Assembly (NCBI GenBank): GCA_947450175.1
Contig: CANFUR010000004.1
Span: 1-32,960, forward strand
Reading direction: 5' to 3'
Length of the DNA stretch: 32,960 nt
Source: Actinomycetota bacterium
Lineage (GTDB): Bacteria > Actinomycetota > Actinomycetes > Nanopelagicales > Nanopelagicaceae
In this document: piece by piece, positions 25,766-25,944 of the stretch
Position numbering within the stretch: the first letter of the stretch is position 1
How the letters are laid out: every line of letters begins with the position of its first letter
Notes under the pieces: model-generated
Databases searched by the model: none
What the model was told of the DNA's origin: nothing
The model's input: only the letters and a program-made list of their open reading frames with translations
Position numbers and translations under genes: made by a program

Positions 25766-25816
25766 TTCTATTGCTCCTTATTAATGTGCGGAATTTGTCT
25801 TTTTACCGATACGACA

Positions 25817-25850
25817 AACCCCGCAGCGAGGGGTTCGGTTATTTAACCCC
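25817..25850 (-). promoter_or_regulatory. Attenuator-like competing hairpins upstream of leuA
   Basis: Reverse strand: GGGGTT (25850-25845), AACCCC (25835-25830), GGGGTT (25822-25817). The middle segment can pair with either neighbour (anti-terminator versus terminator). The U-tract after the hairpin is poor. Confidence 0.6.
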
Positions 25851-25886
25851 GCCACGGCAGCTAAGGAGGAGACTGCGTGTGTTCAT
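25839..25886 (-). CDS. Putative leuA leader peptide MNTRSLLLSCRGGVK*
   Basis: 16 codons including TAA; three consecutive Leu codons CTC CTC CTT; TACCCT hexamer 6 nt before the ATG (leaderless geometry); followed by a hairpin and then leuA. Confidence 0.7.
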   Translation of the reverse strand: MNTRSLLLSCRGGVK

Positions 25887-25944
25887 GGCTCAAGGGTAAC
25901 GCTTAACCTATTTATTGAGCAAGCCGTCGCTTAAACTCTGACTT

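Follow-up and report, generated by a model that had tools for sequence, protein, structure and literature searches.

The leuA leader locus

On the minus strand of the window, by which we mean the whole stretch of 32,960 nucleotides that was analysed, lies a leuA gene whose ATG is at 25765 and which has recO and uppS downstream. The closest named relatives of its product are from Actinomycetes, among them LeuA of Candidatus Planktophila versatilis at 86%, which assigns the window to a freshwater actinobacterium of the Nanopelagicaceae type. A promoter hexamer and a short leader ORF precede the gene:

25893–25898, minus strand: −10 hexamer TACCCT of the leader promoter, from the sequence and from the spacing in relatives
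25839–25886, minus strand: leader ORF MNTRSLLLSCRGGVK with its stop codon, 15 codons, the predicted transcript start being its ATG
25863–25871, minus strand: Leu codons CTC CTC CTT, the proposed sensor and anti-Shine–Dalgarno strand
24050–25765, minus strand: leuA, 2-isopropylmalate synthase of the TIGR00970 type, the regulated gene

An earlier note on this DNA had described TACCCT, a six-base gap and the ATG of this leader, with its CTC CTC CTT run. We confirmed each of these on the minus strand, the hexamer running from 25898 to 25893 and the ATG lying at 25886, and found the arrangement conserved in relatives. Of 95 leaders, 54 have a TANNNT hexamer 6 nt 5′ of their start and 30 more have one at 7 or 9 nt, against a background of 0.0018 per position, the choice of leader starts having favoured such spacing. 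Both the TACCCT-N6-ATG promoter and the leader ORF with its three Leu codons are real features, kept across relatives. In most relatives glnA is directly 5′ of the leader; in the window glnA and leuA are separated by a 147-residue ORF on the opposite strand (25945–26388, plus strand), which has a borderline match to the DinB superfamily and is shared with L097 and L100.

The window feature is the LEU element of actinobacterial leuA that was predicted in 2005 (Seliverstov et al., PMC1262725), real and conserved, and present here in a lineage-specific form. It shares with the published element its place directly 5′ of leuA in an actinobacterium, a short leader ORF with a Leu run, a base stem between the Leu run and the leuA Shine–Dalgarno sequence, a conserved pseudoknot and the lack of a terminator, the helices and the pseudoknot being compared by the published description. 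It differs in an extra helix, P3, that is supported in the family of the window alone. The sites listed in 2005 were those of leuA and one transposase, and the leuC, leuB and LeuA-paralogue sites described below are added here. The authors of that study favoured a binding protein (ML1624, from its phylogenetic pattern); by their account, mutation of Leu codons in the S. coelicolor leuA leader had some effect, inconsistent with classical attenuation (PMC1262725).

The homologous leader LeuL1 of S. lividans (MRFGLLLLSCRGEGL) is leaderless by RNA-seq and has no typical terminator (PMC8079986), and resembles that of the window in being a Leu-rich leader before leuA with a peptide of the LLLxCRG type. 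Leu-rich leu leaders are likewise annotated before leuA in C. diphtheriae (PMC5784534) and C. glutamicum (PMC4046766). The S. lividans and Corynebacterium leaders are annotated as attenuators, with no Shine–Dalgarno mechanism given (PMC8079986, PMC4046766, PMC5784534). Mycobacterial polycysteine uORFs, described as translation attenuation according to a secondary citation (Canestrari 2020, as cited in PMC13236596), are also leaderless leader ORFs with codons for the amino acid of their pathway; that amino acid is cysteine, and as far as they are portrayed there the uORFs were not homologous to the window feature by any test made here.

A conserved core upstream of leuA

The sequence upstream of leuA was compared across 110 cases: 80 named loci, 29 loci of related genomes and the window. 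A conserved core is present in 103 of the 110, and L053 has the core, seen by eye, with a very long loop. L087, L109 and L111 have no DNA upstream of leuA, and the core is missing upstream of leuA in L013, L085 and L090. The core consists, in order, of the Leu codons, five bases, an 11-base arm, a loop with the stop codon, the second arm and a strand that pairs with the loop. Its helices, and P3, are placed in the window as follows:

25847–25857, minus strand: P2 5′ arm, CCGUGGCGGGG, from covariation, conserved in 94 of 96 elements
25821–25831, minus strand: P2 3′ arm, CCUCGCUGCGG, from covariation, conserved in 94 of 96 elements
25835–25839, minus strand: pseudoknot 5′ strand, ACCGA, in the P2 loop and adjoining the leader stop codon, from covariation and the swap test
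25805–25809, minus strand: pseudoknot 3′ strand, UCGGU, from covariation and the swap test
25813–25824, minus strand: P3 5′ arm, GCGGGGUUUGUC, of the family-specific helix, from the own-versus-swapped test
25788–25799, minus strand: P3 3′ arm, GACAAAUUCCGC, from the own-versus-swapped test and transcript folding

P2, which lies just 3′ of the Leu codons, keeps at least 10 of its 11 bp in 94 of 96 elements. In an alignment of 48 sequences, 97.7% of its cells are paired and both sides have changed at 6 of the 11 pairs; the pseudoknot helix has both-side changes at all five of its pairs, and reads ACCGA:UCGGU in the window versus ACCGGU:ACCGGU in most close relatives. None of 500 shuffles reached the covariation of P2 and the pseudoknot, and all five measures also beat every slid control. 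L094, L095, L053 and L073 have partly self-complementary long insertions in the P2 loop and keep the core intact.

P3 was assessed in an own-versus-swapped test on 96 distinct elements (34 from the family of the window and 62 from other actinobacteria), with 5000 permutations for each set and composition kept. The permutations that matched it numbered 0 of 5000 (z −5.9) in the window's family and 585 of 5000 in the other actinobacteria. We therefore rejected P3 as a general part of the LEU element, its support being confined to the window's family, where it is kept with different letters in the relatives L010, L092 and L095. In the window a pseudoknot strand sits in the P3 loop, which allows P2 and P3 to be depicted as a pair of kissing hairpins; at full length the two helices have four bases in common, and their ends therefore compete.

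When a covariance model of the core was run against 297 genomes of the class Actinomycetes, 286 gave matches. The match in the window's own genome scored 70 bits (E 5e-16, with the window element included in the model); this match and the covariation of P2 and the pseudoknot relative to shuffles put the whole feature far outside what chance would give. Outside the class but in the same phylum, 5 of about 226 genomes gave matches, two of them strong. These two (L177 and L178, in genomes G430 and G509 of one family) lie upstream of leuA, and may reflect transfer, an older origin or a matter of taxonomy. The weak matches outside the class, L176 (5′ of a Ku-like gene) and L179, have no leader ORF and were taken as chance. 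At the gathering score of Rfam 15 the element was unmatched in the window, where only a tRNA was found elsewhere, and in five related loci; at E up to 10 the window gave one chance miRNA match only. A known Rfam leader was rejected, there being no match.

The Leu codons can pair with the leuA Shine–Dalgarno sequence

The range to which the earlier note had drawn attention, 25766–25898, just covers the leuA Shine–Dalgarno sequence at 25780–25774, and that first reading missed its pairing with the Leu codons:

25862–25868, minus strand: P1 5′ strand, CUCCUUA, from the minimum-energy fold of the predicted transcript and the own-versus-swapped test
25774–25780, minus strand: P1 3′ strand, UAAGGAG, the leuA Shine–Dalgarno sequence, from the fold and the swap test

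In the window the complement is exact over 7 bp and is part of the minimum-energy fold from the predicted start, which would sequester the target Shine–Dalgarno sequence by default, if in part (computed unpaired probability 0.53). Across the elements, the Leu run paired better with its own Shine–Dalgarno zone than with swapped ones, this being equalled in 3 of 5000 permutations for the family and 0 of 5000 for the others, a comparison from which shared ancestry is not fully removed. Control pairings in the same 96 elements gave no comparable signal. Changes on both sides are seen in L006 (CTCCTACTT with AAGTAGGAG) and L010 (CTACTT with AAGTAG), and the Leu run of L028, GCTTCTTCTT, pairs with GAGAAGAAGC.

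The last Leu codon is CTT in 98–100% of elements, versus 3.5% of leuA Leu codons outside the family. Usage-weighted synonymous encodings that would pair as well make up a median of 13% in the family and 23% in the others, with 16% for the window; the direction is right, and we rejected this test as proof of P1 because it is weak for the window alone.

The competing hairpins and the U-tract are not conserved

The earlier note had proposed a switch between alternative pairings, 1:2 versus 2:3, of GGGGTT (25850–25845), AACCCC (25835–25830) and GGGGTT (25822–25817), following the logic of classical ribosome-mediated attenuation. The three hexamers exist, and 1:2 is present in the pseudoknot-free minimum-energy fold of the window. 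The comparative alignment of upstream regions that the note had suggested was run, and in it the leader ORF and the Leu run are conserved but the hexamer pairings are not: 1:2 is fully formed in 4 of the 34 elements from the family of the window and in 3 of the 62 from other actinobacteria, and 2:3 in 4 of 34 and 0 of 62 respectively, whereas P2, built in part from the same bases, is nearly universal. The 1:2/2:3 scheme, though present in the window, was therefore rejected as the switch.

The note's remark that a good U-tract is missing held throughout the sample, since 92 of the 96 elements have no 8-base window with at least 6 T between P2 and the Shine–Dalgarno sequence, and only four have one. 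Its terminator hairpin fell with this result, and neither P2 nor 2:3 is retained as an intrinsic terminator. The window has the leader peptide rich in end-product codons that is typical of trpL; a GC-rich terminator with a U-tract, and a conserved exclusive antiterminator (1:2 versus 2:3), were not found in it. Attenuators of the trp/ilvB type, such as M. tuberculosis ilvB1 (PMC13236596), likewise have a leader peptide with regulatory codons and use the position of the ribosome as the signal, but they rely on a U-tract terminator and a competing antiterminator, neither of which the LEU element has in conserved form.

What stands of the attenuation logic is a Leu-sensing leader peptide that would act via ribosome position, which is supported by the leaderless-type ORF, by a Leu run conserved throughout and by codons that change with the target gene (see below). 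Classical transcription attenuation by 1:2/2:3 is unsupported, because neither these pairings nor the U-tract are conserved and because the base stem covers the Shine–Dalgarno sequence with the Leu codons, an arrangement that points towards translational control.

Ribosome position on the leader might instead decide termination by other routes, namely P2 as a weak terminator, a further hairpin, or Rho acting on untranslated leuA, perhaps jointly with the translational mechanism. Short leader RNAs of 85, 65 and 45 nt from M. tuberculosis leuA (PMC3526491) suggest termination or processing and leave room for a transcriptional component; P2 is GC-rich and is followed by a short GTTTGT, and a terminator scan gives a weak site at 25831–25819. 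We nevertheless regard transcription attenuation as rather unlikely, given the lack of conserved U-tracts and competing hairpins and the terminator absence also noted for S. lividans LeuL1 (PMC8079986) and in the original description (PMC1262725).

Leader codons differ between target genes

Many genomes have two or three element matches. Among the examples that were fetched, elements lie 5′ of leuC in L142, L144, L148 and L161, near base 300 of each and read towards the gene, and 5′ of leuB(-ilvE) in L149, L159, L164 and L166. Others precede LeuA paralogues of about 50% identity (L146, L152, L156) or a LeuA of the leuA_bact type (L160). A literature search, made largely among papers free of subscription, found no earlier report of the leuC and leuB sites. 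There are genomes in which leuC and leuA are both preceded by elements with Leu-run leaders.

The leaders of leuA and leuC have Leu runs, and those of leuB have VLIL, VRIL, IFVL, LIL or LVIL at the same place in the same core, nearly always with all three branched-chain amino acids. Such Ile/Val/Leu leaders before leuB(-ilvE) were seen in L149, L159, L164, L166, L195–L201, L208, L212, L214–L218 and L220. Read by eye, the L149 leader still pairs with the ribosome-binding site after the codon change, CUCAUC facing GAUGAG. In our reading, the match between codons and target gene is the strongest argument for the sensing of charged tRNA.

The codon change bears on two further explanations. A binding site for a regulatory protein, with leader translation secondary, was proposed with the helicase-like ML1624 as the protein (PMC1262725), and it accords with a compact conserved structure, the phylogenetic match of those authors and the ambiguous codon mutations. 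It leaves unexplained the in-frame leaderless ORFs found everywhere and the change from Leu to Ile/Val/Leu before leuB; moreover, the S. coelicolor Leu-codon mutants probably also changed P1, which could explain their ambiguous result, so that they would be no argument against a role of translation. We consider such a site improbable. A small-molecule riboswitch closed by P1 appears more improbable by far: a pseudoknotted domain with a base stem that includes the Shine–Dalgarno sequence does resemble one, as was noted in PMC1262725, but the alignment has few conserved unpaired bases, as that study remarks likewise, and the codons follow the target gene.

The leuB(-ilvE) elements often have an unnoticed microprotein gene between them and leuB. 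The microprotein is conserved, of about 20–37 residues with the consensus ALQEAIDRRDNGGE, and lies just 5′ of leuB (L149 at 414–521, L159, L195–L224). Of 247 genomes of the class, 80 had a match with an E of 0.05 or less, the weak matches being doubtful; nearly all of the best 30 matches adjoin leuB, and 15 of these 30 lie behind a LEU-type element.

Natural losses of the element

Six relatives have leuA without the element. L085, L090 and L185 belong to the window's genus, L186 and L187 to another genus of its family, and the sixth is L013. In all six the leuA start codon takes the place of the leader behind a −10-like hexamer. L085 retains the glnA end and the GTTACCCTT stretch as in the element-bearing L084 and L086, and its leuA GTG stands at about the place of the leader ATG; TAAGAT lies six bases 5′ of the leuA ATG in L186 and L187, and TAATCT nine bases 5′ of the leuA start in L013. 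This layout supports the position of the promoter and implies that the element is dispensable; on these comparisons leuA appears able to become leaderless. In L188 and L189, from two genomes of another family of the class with no LEU match, the region 5′ of a LeuA-like gene of about 29% identity has a short ORF that contains Leu codons, and a hairpin with TTTTTTG after it. This looks like a classical U-tract attenuator, different from the LEU element.

Discussion

We consider it probable that the LEU element acts by ribosome-mediated translational attenuation, the codons that sense leucine doubling as the anti-Shine–Dalgarno strand. The transcript would start at the leader ATG, and ribosomes would translate the 15-codon leader. 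When leucine is plentiful, the ribosome would reach the stop codon and leave, and the freed RNA would fold P2 and the pseudoknot, with P3 in the window's family, allowing P1 to form; the Leu codons would then lie on the leuA Shine–Dalgarno sequence and leuA would be poorly translated. When charged leucyl-tRNA is scarce, the ribosome would stall on the Leu codons and occupy the anti-Shine–Dalgarno strand, blocking P1 so that leuA is translated; because it would stop just short of P2, P2 and the pseudoknot could stay folded. Comparison of sequences shows the parts of this scheme, that they are conserved and covary, and that the codons differ with the target gene. From these we infer the transcription start, the stall, the opening of the Shine–Dalgarno sequence and the direction of the response.

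In pseudoknot-free folding in silico, a stall on the Leu codons raised mean Shine–Dalgarno accessibility from 0.39 to 0.51 in the family and from 0.24 to 0.45 in the others, and a ribosome at the stop codon gave 0.40 and 0.26 respectively. For the window the computed change is small, the Shine–Dalgarno sequence being unpaired at 0.53 when free, about 0.64 with the stalled ribosome and 0.60 with the ribosome at the stop. In translational attenuation of the ermC type, a drug-induced stall in a leader ORF frees a sequestered Shine–Dalgarno sequence. The mechanism proposed here shares with it the leader-ORF stall that frees the Shine–Dalgarno sequence, but in the ermC type the anti-Shine–Dalgarno strand is separate from the stall codons, whereas in the LEU element the sensing codons would themselves be that strand. 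Translational attenuation is the best supported of the mechanisms considered, and we think it the probable one.

On balance, though with somewhat less assurance for the whole, we favour a joint reading in which the elements form a class-wide family of actinobacterial branched-chain switches, with a Nanopelagicaceae form and repeated loss. The sensing codons would throughout be the anti-Shine–Dalgarno strand, and their replacement would retune specificity, with Leu for leuA, LeuA paralogues and leuC, and Ile/Val/Leu for leuB-ilvE. In the Nanopelagicaceae form an extra helix would be able to convert the pseudoknot into a pair of kissing hairpin loops, and the whole element would have dropped out on more than one occasion, with leuA left leaderless.

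The mechanism of the LEU element has been a question since 2005: Leu-codon mutants had behaved in ways at odds with attenuation, and a binding protein was put forward. Comparison of relatives now yields a specific, testable mechanism for a switch that was predicted then and never proven, and the codon change between leuA or leuC and leuB provides independent evidence for the sensing of charged tRNA. If the Leu codons are both sensor and anti-Shine–Dalgarno strand, then changing them tests both roles together, and the earlier result makes sense; mutants with compensating changes would, if this dual role is true, separate the one from the other. In nearly all Actinomycetes, industrial species among them, the element, which is absent from Rfam, precedes the gene for the committed step of leucine synthesis.
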